Positions 3,447 through 20,842 of a DNA stretch of 20,842 nucleotides are shown here, in pieces. Location of the stretch: IMG/VR virus record IMGVR_UViG_3300038701_002586, positions 1-20,842 of that record, one strand, 5' to 3'. This stretch comes from a virus. The notes under the pieces are model-generated. The model did not search any database. It saw nothing but the letters and a program-made list of their open reading frames with translations, and was not told where the DNA came from. The position numbers were made by a program, and so were the translations under genes. Positions within the stretch are counted from its first letter, which is position 1. The number at the start of each line of letters is the position of its first letter.

Positions 3447-5555
3447 TTGAGGGCCGGCGATCCCGGCTGGGATGACTACAAGGCCAGACGCGCTCGCCAG
3501 CAGCGCGCCCTGTCCGCGTCGGGGCGCGACATCGGCCCGATCCCGGCGGTGGAGGACGAAGCGCGCCGTGAGTCGTGCCGGCTCGATCTGAAGCTCTTCT
3601 GTGAGACGTACTTCGCGCCAACATTCGATGACCCCTGGTCAGACGCTCACCTGAAGGTGCTCTCGGACATGGAGTCCGCGGCGCTCCACGGGACGAAGAA
3701 GGCCATCGCCATGCCGCGCGGGTCTGGCAAGACGAGCATGGCCGAGGCGTGCGCGATCTGGGCGGTGCTCTATGGGCACCGCATCTTCCCGGTGTTGATC
3801 GGGGCGACGGCTACCCACGCTGACGAGCTCCTCGACTCGGTCAAGACCGCCCTCCAAACCAACGAGATCCTGGCCGAGGACTTCCCGGAGGTGTGCTACC
3901 CGGTCGCGCGTCTCGAGGGGATGAACCAGCGGGCGACCGGCCAGACATGCGAAGGGGTGCCGACGCGAATCCGATGGACACAGGATGGGGTGATGCTCCC
4001 GACGATCAAGGGCTCCCCGAGCTCGGGCTCGATCATCCGCGTCGCGTCGATGACCGGGCGCATCCGAGGCATGAAGGCACGCCTCGCCGACGGACGCACG
4101 ATACGCCCTGACCTCGTGCTCCCCGATGACCCCCAGACCGACGAATCTGCGGCGTCGGTCACCCAGACGACGCAGCGGATCCGCAAGCTCTCCAAGGCCA
4201 TCGAGGGGCTCGCCGGCCCCGGCAAGTCGATCGCGGCGATCATGCCGCTGACCATCATCAATCAGGGCGACCTGGCGGACCAGCTGCTCGATCGAAAGCT
4301 GCACCCCGAATGGCGCGGCGAGGTCACCAAGATGCTCACGTCGCTCCCGACCGACGAGGAGCGCTGGGAGAAGTACGCCGAGGTCTACCGAGACGAGCTC
4401 GCCGGCAACGTCCCGCCGGGCACGGCGCTCGCGTTCTACAAGCGGCAGTGGAAGAAGCTCGAGGCTGGCGCCGTCGCCAGCTGGCCCGCGCGATACAACA
4501 AAGAGCAAGAGTTCAGCGCGATCCATCACGCGATGAACCTCAAGATCAAGATGGGCGATTACGCCTGGTATGCCGAGTATCAGAACGAGCCTCAGAGCGA
4601 CATCCCAGAGGACTCGGCGCCGCTGACCGCCGAACAAATCACACGCAAGTACAACCGCATGGAGCGGGGCCTGGTCCCCAACTGGGCGACGCGCGTCACG
4701 GCCTTCGTCGACGTCCAGGAGCGGGCGCTCTACTGGATGGTCTGCGCGTGGTCCGACGACATGACCGGAGCCGTCGTCGACTACGGGACCTGGCCCAAGC
4801 AGCCGACGCGGTACTTCGCCCTCCGCAACATCAAGCGCACGATGAAGAAGGCGACCGAGATCCCGTCGCGCACCGGCGCCATCTACAAGGGCCTCGAGGT
4901 CCTCACCGGGATCCTCATCGATCACGAATGGGAAGTCGACGGCGGGGACACCGTCCTGAACCTCGAGCGGATCCTCGTCGACGCGGCGTGGGGTCCGTCG
5001 ACGGACACCGTCCACCTGTTCTGCCGTCAGAACCGCCACGGCGGCGTGGTGATGCCCTCGATCGGCAAGGGCGTCACGGCGAGCATGAGGCCCTTCGACC
5101 AGTACACGAAGAAGCAGGGCGAACGCATCGGCCTCAACTGGCGCGTCCCGAAGCCGGCCAACAACCGCGTGATCCGCCACGTCCTCTACGACACCAACTG
5201 GTGGAAGAGTCAGGTCTACGAGGGCCTCGGCCTGGCGATGGGCGAGGACGGGTGCATCTCGCTCTACGGCAAGAGCGCCCAGCACCACCAGCTGCTCGCC
5301 GAGCACCTCACCCAGGAGTACCGGATCAAGACCGAGGGGCATGAGCGCACGCTCTACGAGTGGAAGCAGCCGCCCAACAAGCGCGACAACCACTGGTGGG
5401 ACTGCCTGGTCGGATGCGCCGTCGGCGCGTCCATGGGCGGGAGCACGCCCGCCGGCGTCCAGACCAACCGACCCGTGAAGAAGCGCCGCCGGCGTCGACG
5501 GAAGCTCAGCGAGATCCAGGCCGAGAAGCGCAGCCAGCGCGCGGGGGTGCGGTGA
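3447..5555 (+). CDS. terL: Terminase large subunit (GpA-like)
   Basis: This 702-residue motor-nuclease packages DNA into proheads. The N-terminal ATPase carries Walker A in MPRGSGKT (residues 89-96) and Walker B in LVLPDD (223-228). The C-terminal RNase H-like nuclease shows the expected acidic residues: Asp422 in FVDVQERALYW, Asp512 in ILVDAAWG and Asp652 in DNHWWDC. The VDVQ and HWWDC contexts are those of the lambda GpA family. The C-terminus is a run of K and R. The start is a TTG at 3447, 10 bases after the previous stop and behind a G-rich stretch; no better in-frame start was seen. The stop overlaps the next ATG (TGATG). Confidence 0.95.
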   Translation: MRAGDPGWDDYKARRARQQRALSASGRDIGPIPAVEDEARRESCRLDLKLFCETYFAPTFDDPWSDAHLKVLSDMESAALHGTKKAIAMPRGSGKTSMAEACAIWAVLYGHRIFPVLIGATATHADELLDSVKTALQTNEILAEDFPEVCYPVARLEGMNQRATGQTCEGVPTRIRWTQDGVMLPTIKGSPSSGSIIRVASMTGRIRGMKARLADGRTIRPDLVLPDDPQTDESAASVTQTTQRIRKLSKAIEGLAGPGKSIAAIMPLTIINQGDLADQLLDRKLHPEWRGEVTKMLTSLPTDEERWEKYAEVYRDELAGNVPPGTALAFYKRQWKKLEAGAVASWPARYNKEQEFSAIHHAMNLKIKMGDYAWYAEYQNEPQSDIPEDSAPLTAEQITRKYNRMERGLVPNWATRVTAFVDVQERALYWMVCAWSDDMTGAVVDYGTWPKQPTRYFALRNIKRTMKKATEIPSRTGAIYKGLEVLTGILIDHEWEVDGGDTVLNLERILVDAAWGPSTDTVHLFCRQNRHGGVVMPSIGKGVTASMRPFDQYTKKQGERIGLNWRVPKPANNRVIRHVLYDTNWWKSQVYEGLGLAMGEDGCISLYGKSAQHHQLLAEHLTQEYRIKTEGHERTLYEWKQPPNKRDNHWWDCLVGCAVGASMGGSTPAGVQTNRPVKKRRRRRRKLSEIQAEKRSQRAGVR

Positions 5556-6028: not shown

Positions 6029-7575
6029 TCAAGATCCGCTCGCCCATCACGTTCGGAAAGAAGCGCACCAACAAGCGGCGCCACGTCCGAGCGCGCTACG
6101 ACGCGGCCCAGACGACGGCGAACAACCGAGAGCACTGGAGCCAGGCCGACTTCCTGGCGGCGGACGCGGCGCTCTCCCCGGAGGTCCGCTCGAAGCTCCG
6201 CTCGAGATCACGCTACGAGATCGGCAACAACGCCTGGGCACGCCACATCATGCACACCCTGGTGAACATGGTCATCGGGTGCGGCCCGCGCCTCCAGCTG
6301 CTCGGACTCCAGGACCTCGAGGACCTCGAGGACGACGAGAAGCGGAAGATCTCGAAGGCGATCAAGCGGGCGTGGACGGACTGGTCGGAGGGCGTGGGCC
6401 TCACCGAGAAGCTCTGGACGGCACGTCTGTCACAGGGCGAGTCTGGTGAGGCGTTCCTGATCTTCGCGGACGACCTCACGAAGCCCGCCCTCGAGGGCCT
6501 CGACCTCTGGCTCGTGGAAGCCGACCAGGTGACGTCGTCCGCGTTGTACGGCTCGAAGCTCAACCTCGAGGGCGGCGAGGAGCTCGACTACGACGGCGTC
6601 GTTGTCGATCGCAGGGGCCGGCCCAGGCGGTACTACGTCGCGAACCGTCACCCGGGATCGGAGTACGGTCACACGGTCGATCCGAAGTCGATCCCGGCGC
6701 GCTACGTGATGCACCTGTTCCGACGCGAGCGCCCGGGCCAGGTGCGCGGGATCCCCGAGCTCACGGCCTCGCTCGAGCTCTTCGCGCTGATGCGCCGGTA
6801 CACGCTCGCCACCGTCCAGGCGGCGGAGGCAGCGGCGCTGCACACCGGCGTGCTCGAGTCCGACGCGGTCGAGGACGACGAGTTCGAGTCCGAGAGCGAC
6901 GAAGACAACGAGCAGGTCTTCGAGCCGGATCCGATGGACGAGGTCGCGCTCATGCGTGGTCAGTTCACCGTGCTCGCCAAGGGGCAGAAGCTCACGCAGC
7001 TGAAGGCCGAGCACCCGACGACCATGTACGAGGCGTTCATGCGGATGCTGATCGGCGAGGCCGCGGCGCCCGTCCACATGCCCAAGAACATCGCCCTGGC
7101 GGACTCCTCGAGCTTCAACTTCGCCTCGAGCGAGATCGATCACCTGGCGTTCGGCGGGTTCACCAAGATGGAGCGAAAGTCGCTCGAGCTCAAGGTGCTC
7201 AAGCGCGTGTTCGCGGAGTGGTGGCGCCGCGTGGTCACGGAAGACCGCGAGCTCGCGAAGGCAGCCGCACGGATGCGGCTCGATCGCGACACGCCACCCC
7301 GCATCGCCTGGAACTGGGACAACACCCGACCCGGCGATCCGGTGAAGCGTCAGCAGGCGCGGATGCTGGGCCTGAAGGCTCGGACGACGACGCGCGCCGC
7401 GATCGCCGCCGAGGACGGGCTCGACTGGGAAGACAACGCCTACCAGCTCGCCGACGAGGAGGCCCTCCACCGCCGACTGGGCCTGGTCGACGAGGCGCAA
7501 GACACCAGCGAGACACAGGACGACCCGGCGATCGAGCGAGCGCGCGTCCAGGAGGACGACTTCGATGACGACTGA
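6025..7575 (+). CDS. Portal protein (lambda-type)
   Basis: This 516-residue protein forms the ring at the capsid vertex through which DNA enters and leaves. The segment HLFRRERPGQVRGIPELTAS is the hallmark of lambda GpB-like portals. It is preceded by a domain with AWARHIMHTLVNMVIGCGPRL, also typical near their N-terminus. An acidic insert (about residues 280-305, with many D and E) follows the conserved helix, and the C-terminus is acidic (EDDFDDD). GTG 6025 overlaps the preceding stop and has CGGAGG (6012-6017) 7 nt upstream. The end overlaps the protease/capsid gene by 11 bases. Confidence 0.92.
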   Translation: MIKIRSPITFGKKRTNKRRHVRARYDAAQTTANNREHWSQADFLAADAALSPEVRSKLRSRSRYEIGNNAWARHIMHTLVNMVIGCGPRLQLLGLQDLEDLEDDEKRKISKAIKRAWTDWSEGVGLTEKLWTARLSQGESGEAFLIFADDLTKPALEGLDLWLVEADQVTSSALYGSKLNLEGGEELDYDGVVVDRRGRPRRYYVANRHPGSEYGHTVDPKSIPARYVMHLFRRERPGQVRGIPELTASLELFALMRRYTLATVQAAEAAALHTGVLESDAVEDDEFESESDEDNEQVFEPDPMDEVALMRGQFTVLAKGQKLTQLKAEHPTTMYEAFMRMLIGEAAAPVHMPKNIALADSSSFNFASSEIDHLAFGGFTKMERKSLELKVLKRVFAEWWRRVVTEDRELAKAAARMRLDRDTPPRIAWNWDNTRPGDPVKRQQARMLGLKARTTTRAAIAAEDGLDWEDNAYQLADEEALHRRLGLVDEAQDTSETQDDPAIERARVQEDDFDDD

Positions 7576-13610: not shown

Positions 13611-15806
13611 ATGTCGAAGTCTCGATCCATCAAGGCCGGTGGCGCGCACATCGAGATCGGCGCCGACCGCACGAAGCTCGAGAAGGGCCTCTTGCGCGCT
13701 CGCCAGATGCTCCGCGCCTGGGGCGGGCAGGTCGCGCGCATCGGTGCCGGCATCACCGCGGCGTCGACGGCGGCGGCGACGCCCTTCGCCATCGCGACGC
13801 GGGCCTACGCCCAGTTCGATGACGAGATGCGCACCGTCCGCGCGGTGACGGGCGCGACCGAGGAGCAGTTCCAGGCCCTGCGCGAGGAGGCGAAGCGTCT
13901 CGGTCGTGAGACGAGCTTCAGCGCCCGCCAGGTCGCCGGCGCCATGGTCGAGATGGGGCGTGCCGGCTTCGACTCCGGTCAGATCCTCCAGTCGACGCAG
14001 GACGTCCTGAACCTCGCCAGGGCGACGAACACCGAGCTTCCGCGCGCCACAGAAATCGCGGCGGCGGCGATGCGCGGCTTCAACCTGCCGGCGTCGGAGA
14101 TGGGCCGCGTCGCCGACGTCGTCGCGACCTCGGTGAACAGCTCCTCGCAGACGCTCGAGGACTACTTCGAGGCGATGAAGGTCCTCGCACCGATCGCGTC
14201 GGCGGCGGGCGAGTCGATCGAGCAGACGTCCGCGGCGATCGGCATCCTGGCGGACAACGGCATCAAGGGCTCGCTCGGCGGCAACGCGCTCGCCCGAGCG
14301 TTCAAGAACCTCTCGAGCGAGAAGGTCGACGAGCTCCTCGCCTCGATCGGCGTGAAGGCCGGCGACGCCCAGGGCAACCTGCGCCCGATCGCCGACATCA
14401 TCGCCGACATCGGCCAGGCGACGAGCGGCATGGGCTCTCGTCAGCGCCTCTCGATCTTCGAGGAGCTCTTCGGTCGAGGGCAGGCCGCCGGCATCAAGCT
14501 CGCCGACGCCGACGCCACCTTCGACAACGCGCTCGCGAATCTCCTGAGCTCCGACGGCAACGCCGAGCGGATCGCCAAGGAGATGGACGCCGGCATCGGC
14601 GGCGCCTTCCGGCGGACCATGTCGGCGATCGAGGGCGTGCTGATCGCCGTCGGTGAAGCGGTCGAGGGCCCGGTCACGAAGGCCGCGGAGATCCTCGCGA
14701 ACGTCTCCGGCGTGGTGACGGAGTTCGTTCAGAACAATCAGGCGCTCGTCGCTGGCGTGGCAGTGGGCATCGGTGTCGCGCTGGCGGCGGGCGTCACACT
14801 CACGCTCCTGGGCGGGGCGCTGATCCTCGCCGGGTCCGCCCTGGGCACGCTCGCCTCGCTCGTCGGGTTCATCCTCAGCCCGCTGGGTGCGCTCATCGTG
14901 CTCACGGCCGTCGCGACCGGCGGCATCATCGCAGCTGGTGCCGGCTTCCTGTTCTTCACCGACATGGGCCAGGCCGCGGTGTTGCTGATGCAGGGCGAGC
15001 TCAACAAGCTCTGGGAGATCGTAAAGGCGACGATGGGCGGGATCTTCGACGCGATCAAGAGCGGCAACTGGGCGCTCGCGGGGCGGATCGCGATGCTGGG
15101 CCTGAAGTCGGTCTTCCTCGAGGGCACGACGGAGCTCCAGGTCGTGTGGCTGAAGTTCGTCGGCTGGTTCGGCGGCATCTGGGCGGAGATGGAGATCGCT
15201 GCGCGTGGGTTCTTCGACGGCCTCTTCACGGGCGTCACGCAGGCCTACGACTGGGTCGTCACGAAGATCGGCAACCTCTTCCTGGAATTCAGTGTCGGGC
15301 TGGGCATCACCGATATGTCGGAAGAGGATGTCTGGCAGGAGATCCGCGACAACAACACGGCACTTCGTGGCCGGCAGTCCGAGAAGGACGCCGGGCTCGC
15401 GAATCGCGACGCAGAACGCCAGCGTGAGCTCGAGGCGAGACTCGCGCTGCTCGAGATCGGCAAGGGCAGCGAGCGGGCAACGGTCGAGAACGAGATCGCG
15501 GAGATCTTGGCTGAGCTCGAGCAGCTCAACATCCAGGCGGCGGAGGGCGCGGAGGACGCGCCCGGCCTGGGCGCGCAGACCGAAGCGGCGGTGAACAGCC
15601 TCGTGAACCGGATCACCGGCGGGTTCGCCGCGGCCTCGATCAACTCCGATCGCATCACCGCGCGGGGCACGTTCGCCGCCGACACGCGGGGTCTCGGCGC
15701 CGATTCGAGCGGCGCCGCCCTCGCGACGGCCGTCGCGGGGATCTCGCGCGAGGTCGAAGACATCCGGCGTCGCCTCAATGAGATGGACGGGCCCGTCGCC
15801 CGCTGA
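13611..15806 (+). CDS. Tail tape measure protein (TP901 family)
   Basis: This 731-residue protein sets tail length and is ejected with the DNA. Residues about 65-330 carry the TP901 core, with YAQFDDEMRTVRAVTGATEE, LGRETSFSARQVAGAM, MRGFNLPASEMGRVADVVAT, and IASAAGESIEQTSAAIGILA. Residues about 376-457 form several hydrophobic segments (for example LAAGVTLTLLGGALILAGSA), thought to act in membrane passage. The C-terminal 150 residues are charged helix. By the family rule of roughly 0.15 nm per residue, the tail would be near 110 nm. The start at 13611 has only a weak Shine-Dalgarno but lies 3 bases after the preceding stop. Confidence 0.93.
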   Translation: MSKSRSIKAGGAHIEIGADRTKLEKGLLRARQMLRAWGGQVARIGAGITAASTAAATPFAIATRAYAQFDDEMRTVRAVTGATEEQFQALREEAKRLGRETSFSARQVAGAMVEMGRAGFDSGQILQSTQDVLNLARATNTELPRATEIAAAAMRGFNLPASEMGRVADVVATSVNSSSQTLEDYFEAMKVLAPIASAAGESIEQTSAAIGILADNGIKGSLGGNALARAFKNLSSEKVDELLASIGVKAGDAQGNLRPIADIIADIGQATSGMGSRQRLSIFEELFGRGQAAGIKLADADATFDNALANLLSSDGNAERIAKEMDAGIGGAFRRTMSAIEGVLIAVGEAVEGPVTKAAEILANVSGVVTEFVQNNQALVAGVAVGIGVALAAGVTLTLLGGALILAGSALGTLASLVGFILSPLGALIVLTAVATGGIIAAGAGFLFFTDMGQAAVLLMQGELNKLWEIVKATMGGIFDAIKSGNWALAGRIAMLGLKSVFLEGTTELQVVWLKFVGWFGGIWAEMEIAARGFFDGLFTGVTQAYDWVVTKIGNLFLEFSVGLGITDMSEEDVWQEIRDNNTALRGRQSEKDAGLANRDAERQRELEARLALLEIGKGSERATVENEIAEILAELEQLNIQAAEGAEDAPGLGAQTEAAVNSLVNRITGGFAAASINSDRITARGTFAADTRGLGADSSGAALATAVAGISREVEDIRRRLNEMDGPVAR

Positions 15807-17528: not shown

Positions 17529-18187
17529 GCTTCCATCGGGTGTGTTGTCCTCCCTGCGGGGGCGGTGAAGTACCGGAGCCTGAGTGCGACGCCATCTGCG
17601 GCTGGGACATCTCGGGTCCCAACAGTGTGCGCATCAAGGTCACGATCACGCAGAACGAACTGGCGTGGTCTAACACCGCAGGTGCCGACGCATCGGTCCC
17701 CAATCCGATTCCCGGACCGACGGGGACGTTCTATCTGGACACGGGACTCTTCGTCCAGTTCGACGAGGTCGGCGGGTACTTGATCAATGGGAGTGGGAAG
17801 CTCGTCGACGGGGACGACGAGGTCTCTATGTCCTTGTCCGCGTCGTTCGATTGCGACGACGGGCAGGACACGCTGGCGGAATACAGCTTCGGCATCACCG
17901 TCAACGTTGAGCTCGATCCGTCGGTTAACACCCAATGGGCAAGCACCAGCTGGGCCGGCGCGTACGAACGTGCCACGGGATGGGAAGCGGGCGGCACTAC
18001 GCTAGGACGCACACACTCGGTCGACGGATGCTTCGTTTTGGATGCGACCGAGGTGCGATCCGGTACGCAATCGAACTATGTGACCCGAGTCCCCGCCACC
18101 GGCGGCGGCAGCACAATTCTGATGAACTGGATCAGACGAATCACGATGGAGATCGAGATCGAGGATCTGCTCGAGATAATCCCATGA
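17525..18187 (+). CDS. Cys-rich, beta-rich tail-end protein
   Basis: This 220-residue protein starts with a Cys cluster (MSFHRVCCPPCG, then CDAICGW). It continues as probable beta-sandwich sequence (VRIKVTITQNELAWSN, FGITVNVELDP, TLGRTHSVDGCFVLDATEV) and ends acidic (EIEIEDLLEIIP). The Cys pairs may bind metal or form disulfides. No family was recognised; a receptor-binding or tail-tip role fits its place as the last large structural gene. Codon use is somewhat more AT-tolerant than in the head genes, hinting at recent exchange. The GTG start overlaps the previous stop. Confidence 0.72.
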   Translation: MSFHRVCCPPCGGGEVPEPECDAICGWDISGPNSVRIKVTITQNELAWSNTAGADASVPNPIPGPTGTFYLDTGLFVQFDEVGGYLINGSGKLVDGDDEVSMSLSASFDCDDGQDTLAEYSFGITVNVELDPSVNTQWASTSWAGAYERATGWEAGGTTLGRTHSVDGCFVLDATEVRSGTQSNYVTRVPATGGGSTILMNWIRRITMEIEIEDLLEIIP

Positions 18188-18603
18188 GCGAGAAGATCAA
18201 AATGACGGTGGAGCGAGCACGCTCGTTTGTCCTGCTCGGAATGCCCGAGCCCGGATGGTCGGGTCTCCGCGTTTCGGAGCGGGTCGACGACAAAACGGCG
18301 CGGCGGCGCTCAGCTGCGTGCGCTGGGTGTGACACGATCAAGCTGGTGAGGATGCCCACGATCGAAGGGCCCAAGCGAGCGACGATCTTGGCGAAGTGTC
18401 AGGGCGGTGTGCGCGGACGCCCCTGCGGGTGCGTCGTTGCCGAGAGCGCTCGAGGGGGCGCGGAACACATCACCCCCGCAGGCATTCGCGTCGAGATCAC
18501 CGCTGCCGGCAAGGGCCTCGAGTCGTCGAAGCGGTGCCCGCGCGGGAAGTGGGGAGCGATCCAGGGTGATCACGTATCGGACGACGTCAGCTTCCCAAGC
18601 TGA
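18184..18603 (+). CDS. Small Cys-rich protein whose 3' end lies in the attachment core
   Basis: This 139-residue protein starts at an ATGA overlap. Its cysteines (CAGC at 46-49, Cys72, CGC at 81-83, and one near the C-terminus) could make a zinc-binding fold with the surrounding basic residues (TARRRSAAC). No family was recognised. The last codons (GAC GTC AGC TTC CCA AGC TGA) are the anticodon arm of a tRNA-Gly half, so the stop codon lies within the attachment core. Integration would leave this end unchanged because the core is the same on both sides. Confidence 0.68.
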   Translation: MSEKIKMTVERARSFVLLGMPEPGWSGLRVSERVDDKTARRRSAACAGCDTIKLVRMPTIEGPKRATILAKCQGGVRGRPCGCVVAESARGGAEHITPAGIRVEITAAGKGLESSKRCPRGKWGAIQGDHVSDDVSFPS

Positions 18604-18633
18604 ATGTCGCCGGTTCGAGTCCGGTCACCCGCT
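18587..18633 (+). other. 3' half of tRNA-Gly(CCC), probable phage attachment core
   Basis: The bases form a canonical tRNA 3' half: anticodon stem TCAGC/GCTGA around the loop TTCCCAA (anticodon CCC, Gly), variable region ATGTC, and T arm GCCGG/CCGGT around TTCGAGT. The acceptor strand CACCCGC is followed by discriminator T. No proper D arm or acceptor 5' strand precedes it; only GGGTG (18564-18568) can pair with CACCC. A half tRNA next to a tyrosine integrase is the classic att core of phages that integrate into tRNA 3' ends. The true core may begin a few bases upstream (about 18584). Confidence 0.75.
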
Positions 18634-18645
18634 CTTGCCGTGGAT

Positions 18646-18770
18646 GATGACCCGGCACCGTGTTCTGGACGCGGCCCTGCTTCTGCGGGGGAACAGCCTC
18701 GGGATTTAGGACCCCGAAACCGAACAGCCGAGGCCCATCCTTTCGCGAGGGTGGGCCTCTTTGCTAGGTT
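18646..18770 (+). ncRNA. Candidate structured RNA, tandem copy A
   Basis: This is the first of two tandem 125-bp units. Predicted hairpins in order are: H1 CCGTG/CGCGG with a 7-nt loop (18658-18674); H2 CCCTGC/GCGGGG with a 4-nt loop (18675-18690); H3 TCGGG/CCCGA with a 9-nt loop (18699-18717); and an 11-bp terminator-type hairpin (18730-18759). It carries no convincing open reading frame. H2 differs in sequence from copy B but pairs in both, which supports selection for structure. No known RNA family was recognised. Confidence 0.5.
18730..18762 (+). terminator. Terminator-type hairpin of copy A
   Basis: GAGGCCCATCC (18730-18740) pairs with GGGTGGGCCTC (18749-18759), with one G-T pair and the loop TTTCGCGA, followed by TTT. 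The stem is strong but the T run is short, as is common in GC-rich genomes. It would stop + strand transcription coming from the late genes or the tRNA core. Confidence 0.68.
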
Positions 18771-18895
18771 GATGACCCGGCACCGTGACCTGTACGCGGC
18801 CTCGTCAGCCGAGGGAACGACTTCGGGACTTATCACCCCGAGACCGAACAGCCGAGGCCCATCCTCTCGCGGGGGTGGGCCTCTTCCGTGCGCGG
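18771..18895 (+). ncRNA. Candidate structured RNA, tandem copy B
   Basis: The second unit shares the opening GATGACCCGGCACCGTG and most of its 3' half with copy A. Its hairpins are H1 CCGTG/CGCGG (18783-18799), H2 CCTCG/CGAGG with a 5-nt loop (18800-18814), H3 TCGGG/CCCGA (18823-18841), and a terminator-type stem. The H1 loops share only nnCTGnA, and the H3 loops differ at several places while stems are kept. That is the pattern expected of paralogous RNAs with different loop specificities. Confidence 0.5.
18854..18885. terminator. Terminator-type hairpin of copy B, possibly bidirectional
   Basis: GAGGCCCATCC (18854-18864) pairs with GGGTGGGCCTC (18873-18883) around an 8-nt loop, followed by TT. 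It lies between the + strand late genes and the 3' end of the minus-strand membrane protein gene, so it may serve both directions. Confidence 0.62.
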
Positions 18896-18942: not shown

Positions 18943-19440
18943 TTACTCGGACTTCCGGAGCTCCTCGAGGACGGCTCGCTGATCCTGTTGCATCGCCTGA
19001 ATCGCCCGGCACGTCTCAGAGATCATGACGGCGAAACAGATCACTGCGAACGATCCGAAGGCGATCGCGGCACCGAGTACCGACCGCTGGAAGGACTCTC
19101 TGCCCACGCCGTCGATCAGCACCAAGGCACCGGCGAGCAGCCCGGGAAGGGCGCCGAGCATCACCGCGATCGCGAAGACGTAGCCCGGCGTGGTGATGGC
19201 GAATCCGGAGCGGCGCAGACGGCGGGTCGGCTCCACGTCCTCAGAGGCCTGCGCCATCTTCCGCTGCTCAGCCCTCGGGATCTCGACCGCGTCGAGAATG
19301 ATGGCGCCCGGATTGGCCCGCCTGGCATGGGCGATGGCGGCCTCTCGGTCGGCCTCCGGGGAGTGGAATCGTCCGATCGGCCCTGCGTGTCCATCTCGGA
19401 TCGAGACGACCCAACGGGCATTAGAAGCGGCATCGTTCAT
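18943..19440 (-). CDS. Two-TM membrane protein, function unknown
   Basis: This minus-strand protein of 165 residues starts at ATG 19438-19440; a GTG at 19491 would add 17 residues and neither start has a clear Shine-Dalgarno. The N-terminal soluble part contains WVVSIRDGHAGPIGRFHSPE and a helix rich in A and R. Two hydrophobic segments (YVFAIAVMLGALPGLLAGAL and VLGAAIAFGSFAVICFAVMI) are joined by a short loop, and a charged C-terminal helix follows (AMQQDQRAVLEELRKSE). It is the only confident minus-strand gene and lies in the lysogeny region, so superinfection exclusion or another lysogen function is possible. No family was recognised. Confidence 0.65.
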   Translation of the reverse strand: MNDAASNARWVVSIRDGHAGPIGRFHSPEADREAAIAHARRANPGAIILDAVEIPRAEQRKMAQASEDVEPTRRLRRSGFAITTPGYVFAIAVMLGALPGLLAGALVLIDGVGRESFQRSVLGAAIAFGSFAVICFAVMISETCRAIQAMQQDQRAVLEELRKSE

Positions 19441-19494
19441 GCCCGAGAAGATACCAGCCCCGAAGTCACTGAGCGAGAATTCTGTCGCCACAGG

Positions 19495-19523: not shown

Positions 19524-19633
19524 CCCGGCGCCCGGCGTTTCTGAAGCGGCCTCCTAACCCGCTGACGTCTGGCTCGTTTGTGCGGGCTCATCAACCCCAC
19601 AAATCAGACGGACATGATGATTCGAGGCGGCCT

Positions 19634-20569
19634 ATGGCCCGCGCACACCCCATGCTCGTGGGCATGTCAGCGTGTAGCACCACGGAGATCGTGCGGCGCT
19701 ACACGGACCACGCTCGGCGCGTCTACGTGCGCGCCGACGGCGTGACGCCCACGCGCCACGCCGACAACGTCCGGGTAGCGCTGAAGGACCTCGAGGAGCT
19801 CCACCCCGGTGTGCCGGCGGCGGAGCTCGCGACGCACCACCTCAAAGCCCTGCGCCTGATGCTCATCACGAAGGGCCTCAAGCGGAAGACGATCAACGCC
19901 CGCGTGAACATCATCCGCCAGGCCTGGGATTGGGCCGCGGAGATGGGCCTGATCCCCGAGTCGACCGCCGACGAGCTCCGCACGCTCCGCCCGCTCAAGC
20001 GCAACGCCGCCCCCGAAGGTGCCGGCGTCGAGGCGGTCGCGCTCGAGACCGTCCGGGCGACGATCCCGAATCTTCCTCGAGACATCGCCGACCTGGTCCG
20101 GTTCCTCCTCCTGACCGGGTGCCGGGTCGGCGAAGCCCGCGAAGCGCACAGGGACGACGTCGTCATCACAGCTGCCGGCGACGCGTTCCTGTGCCCTCGC
20201 TGGCACAAGACGGCACGGCACGACATCGTGCGCGAGATCCCGCTCAACGAGCCGGCGTACCTGCTCGTGAGCGCACGCGAGGGGCGTGAGTACCTGTTCG
20301 GCGTGGGCGACGGCTCGAAGCCCTACTCGAAGGACGCGATCTATCACGCGATCCGGCGCGCCTGCGATCGTGCCGGCGTCGCCCACTGGTCGCCGGGCCA
20401 GATCCGACACACCGCGGCGACGGAGATCTTCGTTGCCGAGCAGAGCCTCGAGGCGACGGCGTCGGTCCTCGGGCACACCTCGACACGGGTCACACGCAGC
20501 TACGTCCATGCGCGAGGGAACGCGCTGGCGCTGCGATCAGCAACACCCCTGGAGTCACTCAGCGCCTGA
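19634..20569 (+). CDS. int: Tyrosine integrase
   Basis: This 311-residue site-specific recombinase would insert and excise the phage at the tRNA-Gly core. The N-terminal DNA-binding domain (about residues 10-110) has LKALRLMLITKGLKRKTINA followed by ARVNIIRQAWDWAAEMGLIP. The catalytic domain shows Arg164 in TGCRVGEA, Lys192 in RWHKTARH, Arg258 in SPGQIRHTAAT, His281 in LGH, and the nucleophile Tyr290 in SYVHA. The first His of the usual HxxR motif is replaced by Gly255, with a His at 251 nearby. ATG 19634 has a GAGGCGG just upstream; ATGs at 19652 and 19664 and a GTG at 19580 are alternatives. The N-terminal layout resembles planctomycete integrases. Confidence 0.93.
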   Translation: MARAHPMLVGMSACSTTEIVRRYTDHARRVYVRADGVTPTRHADNVRVALKDLEELHPGVPAAELATHHLKALRLMLITKGLKRKTINARVNIIRQAWDWAAEMGLIPESTADELRTLRPLKRNAAPEGAGVEAVALETVRATIPNLPRDIADLVRFLLLTGCRVGEAREAHRDDVVITAAGDAFLCPRWHKTARHDIVREIPLNEPAYLLVSAREGREYLFGVGDGSKPYSKDAIYHAIRRACDRAGVAHWSPGQIRHTAATEIFVAEQSLEATASVLGHTSTRVTRSYVHARGNALALRSATPLESLSA

Positions 20570-20611: not shown

Positions 20612-20842
20612 ATGAACCAGAAGGAGACGATCGAAATCTACGATGGAATGCGGACGCTCGACCTCGGCGGCGGCACGCTCCCCGCTGGGACTGCGCTGCC
20701 CGAGTCGCTCCGCTGGCTCTACCTCGGCGGCGGCACGCTCCCCGCTGGGACTGCGCTGCCCGAGTCGCTCCGCTGGCTCTACCTCGGCGGCGGCACGCTC
20801 CCCGCTGGGACTGCGCTGCCCGAGTCGCTGAGAGGGCTCTAC
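20612..20842 (+). CDS. Leucine-rich repeat protein, cut by the window edge
   Basis: ATG 20612 opens a frame that starts MNQKETIEIYDGMRTLDL and then repeats a 20-residue unit, LGGGTLPAGTALPESLRWLY. Three units are visible and the frame runs off the right edge. The repeat has the spacing of short leucine-rich or beta-helix repeats such as FNIP-like proteins, which build solenoids for protein binding. CAAGG just before the ATG is a poor Shine-Dalgarno. AAGGAG at 20621-20626 lies after this ATG, and the only ATG near it (20643) is in another frame. A role in binding host or phage proteins is possible but open. Confidence 0.7.
   Translation, partial: MNQKETIEIYDGMRTLDLGGGTLPAGTALPESLRWLYLGGGTLPAGTALPESLRWLYLGGGTLPAGTALPESLRGLY
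20661..20842 (+). repeat. 60-bp tandem repeats coding the leucine-rich units
   Basis: Units begin at 20661, 20721 and 20781. The first two are identical over 60 bases, and the third differs only near its end (cgagtcgctgagagggctct). The array continues past the window. Near-identity at the DNA level shows recent expansion rather than old protein repeats. Confidence 0.95.

Follow-up and report, generated by a model that had tools for sequence, protein, structure and literature searches.

The window, i.e., the whole stretch of DNA analysed here, corresponds to an IMG/VR virus record of 20,842 bp and has phage gene content. Tail-region ORFs extend to 18603 and are followed by a tRNA fragment, two tandem structured units, a minus-strand ORF and an integrase gene. 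The main features are as follows:

3447–5555: terminase large subunit
structural region of the window: portal and head protease/major head protein
13611–15806: tape measure
18187–18603, + strand: last ORF of the late (structural) operon, entering the attP core
18584–18633, + strand: attP common core, equivalent to the 3' part of a tRNA-Gly(CCC) gene of Phycisphaerales, from the anticodon arm through the discriminator base
18643–18764, + strand: structured RNA unit 1 (folding z -2.5)
18768–18888, + strand: structured RNA unit 2 (folding z -1.9)
18943–19491, - strand: convergent ORF of 182 aa with hydrophobic stretches, between the units and the integrase gene
19580–20569, + strand: tyrosine integrase (Pfam PF00589, E 1.9e-15; PHROG integrase, E 1.5e-29)

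The last ORF of the late operon gave no match in PHROG and Pfam searches. The integrase gene points the same way as the tRNA fragment and the units, from which it is separated by about 0.7 kb and the convergent ORF; a pattern search of IMG/VR returned no relatives of this integrase. Just upstream of its start there is an imperfect inverted repeat (19567–19609, GTCTG..TTTGTG..CACAAAT.CAGAC), possibly an operator of the integrase gene, which contains a 14/16 inverted copy of the 5' segment of the units (19580–19595). The contig ends in three 60-bp tandem repeats (20656–20829, 99% identical) encoding LYLGGGTLPAGTALPESLRW; they likely encode a repeat protein and are possibly the reason why the assembly stopped there.

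The attP core and the host

The 42 nt starting at 18592 have 17 exact matches among GTDB species genomes, all in MAGs named Phycisphaerae, Phycisphaerales, Phycisphaeraceae or Planctomycetota, save one named only 'bacterium'. The majority of these places are intact tRNA-Gly(CCC) genes, to which the match can be followed back as far as 18584. The core itself scores 25.9 bits as a tRNA in cmscan, i.e., below the gathering threshold. Where a tRNA gene would have its 5' half, the window has phage tail-region sequence. Therefore, 18584–18633 is the attP of the phage, and its host is, judging by these matches, most likely a member of Phycisphaerales. Among other IMG/VR contigs, a search with 40 specified bases of the core found no second occurrence. 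The initial annotation of this DNA did not include the attP core from the host tRNA-Gly abutting the units, which is the key context for what follows.

A tandem pair of folded units

The two units lie head to tail in the same direction. Tandem Repeats Finder, run on the window, reported 18645–18885 with a period of 124, 84% matches and a score of 354, and pairwise alignment of unit 1 with unit 2 gave 97 identical columns out of 122, with a register offset of 125 and 124 bp and one 1-nt indel. Their parts are:

18645–18662, + strand: unit 1, conserved 5' segment TGATGACCCGGCACCGTG (same 18 nt in unit 2)
18658–18674, + strand: unit 1, hairpin 1
18675–18690, + strand: unit 1, hairpin 2, site of the compensatory change
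18699–18717, + strand: unit 1, hairpin 3
18730–18759, + strand: unit 1, terminator-type hairpin (13 bp, about -24 kcal/mol, tail TTTGCTAG)
18770–18787, + strand: unit 2, conserved 5' segment TGATGACCCGGCACCGTG (same 18 nt in unit 1)
18783–18799, + strand: unit 2, hairpin 1
18800–18814, + strand: unit 2, hairpin 2
18823–18841, + strand: unit 2, hairpin 3
18854–18883, + strand: unit 2, terminator-type hairpin (tail TTCCGTGC)

The predicted consensus fold consists of a 3-bp closing stem (GGC/GCC) enclosing three hairpins, followed by the 13-bp GC terminator-type hairpin. The initial annotation had described a tandem pair of units, each with three hairpins and a terminator-type stem; the repeat search, the alignment and the pairing, standard at 31 of 31 consensus pairs in unit 1 and in unit 2 alike, bear it out, and the closing stem is added here as a fourth stem. 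Hairpin 2 is indeed paired in both copies (CCCTGC/GCGGGG in copy 1, CCTCG/CGAGG in copy 2), and the stems are kept while the loop sequences have diverged, as had been proposed. The compensatory change claimed at the same time is real, but its extent comes down to one double-sided change among the four pairs that differ, the other three being single-sided; in hairpin 2, one pair goes from C-G to U-A and another is altered on one side. The copies do not differ in the 18-nt 5' segment or in the linker ACCGAACAGCC, both largely unpaired according to the prediction. In the terminator hairpin, 28 of 30 bases are conserved, while most columns of hairpin 2 and its loop have changed.

Differences between the copies are rarer in stems (5 of 62 columns) than elsewhere (20 of 60; Fisher P = 6e-4). 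When the five stem transitions were placed at random, no pair was broken in 0.073 of the trials, and no pair was broken with a double change present in 0.026; in these tests of stem avoidance and pair retention, the structure was taken from the same two sequences. Together, stem avoidance and pair retention give the fold modest, not decisive support from two sequences. For the two-copy alignment, the folding z is -4.5 when read as the + strand and -2.5 as the - strand. Without the terminator hairpin z drops to -1.7 (15 of 300 shuffles), so most of the excess stability belongs to the terminator-type stem. The latter, GC-rich with 13 bp and a 4-nt loop, has the stem and loop of an intrinsic (Rho-independent) terminator; the U-tracts behind it are short (UUUG and UUCC), and a consensus terminator scan flagged neither unit hairpin with its tail. 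A scan of the window found no promoter-like site ahead of unit 1 or unit 2. A coding explanation was discarded: the spacing of 125 is not divisible by three, the copies differ by a 1-nt indel, and translation in the same frame yields different peptides from the two copies. The earlier statement that no ORF accounts for the units thus agrees with the lack of a reading frame conserved between them.

Related prophages and tRNA flanks

An integrated relative of the window phage is present on contig 14 of genome G325. There, the order is an intact tRNA-Gly(CCC), a spacer of 215 nt, a co-oriented integrase gene, and terminase, portal, capsid and tail genes; the proteins are 48% (terminase), 36% (portal) and 27% (capsid) identical to those of the window phage, and the integrases are 34–35% identical over 304 aa. 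A second copy of the tRNA 3' part, matching at 51 of 53 bases, lies 24 kb on and represents attR. The spacer (L108:2565-2779, - strand) folds with a z of -5.4 and carries a terminator with six U at its end; then comes a TTGACA-type promoter-like stretch ahead of the integrase gene. It shares no detectable sequence similarity with the units, and no homologues of it were found, its fold being predicted from a single sequence. By the map of this relative, an integrated window phage would have unit 1 about 10 nt downstream of the mature tRNA-Gly. The units and the integrase gene would both be read in the direction of the tRNA, so that the tRNA-Gly transcript of the host would end in the units as its 3' trailer.

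For the 250 nt that directly follow the tRNA, z is -4.1 in the window and -5.8 in the relative. Five co-oriented tRNA-then-integrase loci (L108, L110, L115, L117 and L123) gave z of -2.7 to -4.0 for the 125 nt next to the tRNA; in the four besides L108, where a tRNA lies near a related integrase, the range is -2.9 to -4.0. Of thirteen further flanks of tRNA-Gly(CCC), most lie near 0; the exceptions include L073, L080, L083 and L084, and some of these carry a native terminator or the tRNA-integrase leader RNA treated below. The native hairpins behind the tRNA in L073 and L080 have short tails (CTCTTGCCG and CTCTTTCCG), like those of the units. In several hosts, a -10-like box is present just upstream of tRNA-Gly(CCC).

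The tRNA-Gly(CCC) gene is an integration hot spot. Directly behind the attR of the 24-kb prophage in G325 (L143/L144), the leader RNA and the integrase start of a second, apparently degraded element are found. At four further loci in Phycisphaerales MAGs (L069, L075, L078 and L081), a 3' part of tRNA-Gly(CCC) occurs without a proper 5' half, resembling attR scars left by other elements, and the flanks are alike, with recurring CTGCTGGGG motifs.

In other Phycisphaerales elements, a leader RNA of about 120 nt lies exactly between the 3' end of a captured tRNA (Gly, Asp, Ala or Pro) and the start of a co-oriented integrase gene. Its copies are:

L162:1522-1645, + strand
L193:15902-16023, - strand
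L201:17134-17255, - strand
L164:1892-2012, + strand
L171:6733-6850, + strand
L084:380-499, - strand
L144:5420-5539, - strand
L077:1280-1397, - strand
L079:2941-3060, + strand
L207:about 6215-6329, - strand

Nine aligned copies (alignment A4) share a GCUG/CAGC closing stem enclosing two hairpins, plus a third hairpin. Double-sided changes affect 7 of 24 pairs, a number reached in 2 of 500 shuffles, and the covariation score is 0.253 as compared with 0.125 for shuffled alignments and at most 0.08 for slid controls. The 3' stem overlaps the GGGAGG ribosome-binding region, and Rfam has no match in the loci scanned. The leader is thus better supported as an RNA family than the units of the window are, and represents a candidate family of integrase leaders or attenuators. 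Like the units, it is a structured RNA directly 3' of a captured tRNA, including tRNA-Gly(CCC), in the same host group; unlike them, it has another sequence and another fold and runs straight into the integrase start codon. As a homologue of the units it was rejected: its profile has no significant match in the window, the best one (6.5 bits, at 233–253) lying far from them.

Homologues of the units themselves were sought more widely. The initial annotation knew of no matching RNA family, and Rfam 15 likewise gave no match in the window at or above the gathering threshold; the only sub-threshold match over the units was to a microRNA model, far below the cut-off. In IMG/VR, the exact 18-mer and a gapped unit pattern gave one match each (L002 and L068), judged to be chance, since only the short pattern was present and the fold was absent; the gapped pattern had no matches in GTDB genome contigs. 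Searches with blastn in 400 and 397 Phycisphaerae genomes (overlapping samples) returned only chance matches of 20–55 nt; the ones examined by base-by-base alignment proved to be fragments, and two that were checked for frames fall inside ORFs. Annotated phages and plasmids gave nothing past the tRNA part, or matches with E of about 3–9. A covariance model built on the two unit copies, run against related phage and prophage sequences totalling about 2.1 Mb, recovered only the two window copies, and weak matches of earlier, less exact models (E 0.01–9) look like chance. The many homologues with covarying stems, proposed initially as support for the units, were thus not encountered in anything searched, and for this reason covariation of the units can be tested on the two copies alone. 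At the same time, terminase matches at E <= 1e-30 occur in 81 of 330 Phycisphaerales genomes, and phages with this type of terminase are very common there as prophages; up to three copies of such prophages per genome were seen, some about 40 kb apart (G327, contig 1). Since no further units turned up in the DNA searched while the phage group is common, they are a narrow feature of the window phage and not of its group.

A proposed terminator or attenuator block beside the tRNA

The units are best explained as a duplicated transcription terminator or attenuator block on the integrase side of attP, replacing the displaced terminator of the tRNA, a reading that we give a probability of about 0.5. 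We infer transcription from the tRNA promoter, termination in the units and an insulating purpose, in the following way. The phage would integrate at the 3' end of the tRNA-Gly(CCC) gene of its host, its 50-bp copy of the 3' part restoring the tRNA, and the host downstream sequence, with any tRNA terminator, would come to lie at the distal end of the prophage. Transcripts started at the tRNA-Gly promoter of a lysogen would enter the units about 10 nt after the 3' end of the mature tRNA. Here, each unit would fold and close with its strong GC hairpin, so that the transcript is stopped or attenuated, and read-through from the tRNA would thus be kept off the antisense ORF and the integrase gene. 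In the free or replicating phage, the hairpins would terminate the late structural operon, which reads into the units. Two weak terminators with short U-tracts, placed in series, may make one strong terminator.

This reading is supported by the identity of the attP core with the 3' part of tRNA-Gly(CCC) and, as far as the comparison of the loci goes, by the folded spacer that the integrated relative has in the same place. The well-folding flanks on the integrase side, the native hairpins with similarly short tails in L073 and L080, the upstream -10-like boxes, the pairs kept while the loops diverged and the published precedent of ICEKp1 also support it. Against it stand the short U-tracts and the negative terminator scan, as well as the good folding of the native tRNA-Gly(CCC) flanks L073, L080, L083 and L084. 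Furthermore, a plain terminator has no need of three extra hairpins and a perfectly conserved 18-nt 5' segment. Because the convergent ORF and about 0.7 kb intervene, the units are not a direct leader of the integrase gene.

Alternatively, the units could be trans-acting small RNAs (a regulator, a sponge or a decoy) made from the tRNA-Gly 3' trailer or from promoters of their own and directed at targets of the host or the phage. Each unit would then be a separate structured RNA, complete with a terminator-type end, and the identical, mostly unpaired 18-nt segment and linker, superfluous for a pure terminator, would find a use; the literature on 3' external transcribed spacers, moreover, describes tRNA 3' trailers as sponges of small RNAs. 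We consider this unlikely: no homologue turned up in the databases searched, no promoter-like site precedes either unit, the loops differ between the copies and therefore offer no conserved seed loop, and, with the terminator left out, the fold is barely more stable than that of shuffled sequence (z -1.7). The regulatory or decoy role put forward initially is not supported, the attP/tRNA-Gly neighbourhood pointing to a terminator or attenuator role in the lysogen. We rate slightly lower the specific version in which the host tRNA-Gly promoter drives a pair of paralogous phage small RNAs, freed by tRNA 3' processing and acting in trans during lysogeny. If the units did act in trans, the prophage would be borrowing a tRNA promoter directly to make small RNAs of its own. 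Another reading takes the units as ordinary tandem terminators that close the late structural operon, next to attP by chance and with no tRNA-linked role. A terminator would indeed be expected on the + strand here, where the last structural ORF stops at 18603 with the next gene on the - strand. In the relative, however, the folded spacer lies on the integrase side of attL, about 24 kb from the end of the structural genes, so its position follows the att site; the conserved 18-nt segment is not explained either, and this reading appears quite improbable.

There is little likelihood that the repeats act as DNA, i.e., that TGATGACCCGGCACCGTG is bound as arm-type sites of the integrase or an accessory factor on the P' arm. 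The direct 18-bp repeats do lie 12 and 137 bp from the core, and the 14/16 inverted copy at 19580–19595 would fit, but arm sites usually flank both sides of the core and are spaced closer together, whereas no 12-bp match (one mismatch allowed) is shared across its two sides. Other 16-mers of the units also reach 14/16 elsewhere in the window by chance, and the paired changes in hairpin 2 would be purposeless in a DNA site. Least probable of all is a neutral duplication of one terminator-containing stretch without further function. A single duplication event without homologues would look like this; however, the divergence is uneven, with the stems spared (Fisher P = 6e-4), and 18 consecutive bases and 28 of the 30 terminator-hairpin bases were kept while hairpin 2 changed at most columns.

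Among known systems, 3'ETS-leuZ is a tRNA 3' external transcribed spacer that serves as a sponge of small RNAs. It resembles the units in being RNA from sequence 3' of a mature tRNA; 3'ETS sponges, unlike the units, come from host tRNA operons and pair with known small RNAs. Closer to the terminator or attenuator reading is ICEKp1, whose integration displaces the tRNA-asn terminator so that the tRNA promoter reads int; stem-loops SL1–SL3 in the int 5'-UTR, a potential terminator, were measured to lower the amount of full-length transcript (PMC13023037). As in ICEKp1, the window element would integrate at the 3' end of a tRNA gene, restoring the tRNA and displacing its terminator, and has terminator-like stem-loops between the tRNA 3' end and a co-oriented downstream integrase gene. 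In contrast to ICEKp1, the units are two tandem multi-hairpin copies, each with an identical 18-nt 5' segment; they lie outside the int 5'-UTR, with the convergent ORF (18943–19491) and about 0.7 kb in between; and the element is a phage with a planctomycete host, known here from sequence alone. Because of the duplication, the 18-nt segment and the interval with the convergent ORF ahead of int, we do not file the units as a member of the ICEKp1 system. In the KplE1 (argW-intS) integrase-tRNA module, protein binding at a promoter overlapping attL controls int, and the available part of the source describes no tandem RNA units (PMC2951348).

Integration of phages and ICEs into tRNA genes displaces the terminator of the tRNA and puts the integrase side under a strong host promoter, and how such elements escape this cost is only starting to be understood (ICEKp1, 2026). 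The window phage, its relative and other Phycisphaerales elements all seem to have a folded RNA in the gap between the tRNA and the integrase gene, with unrelated sequences. This suggests that an RNA insulator or attenuator has arisen repeatedly at the same position.
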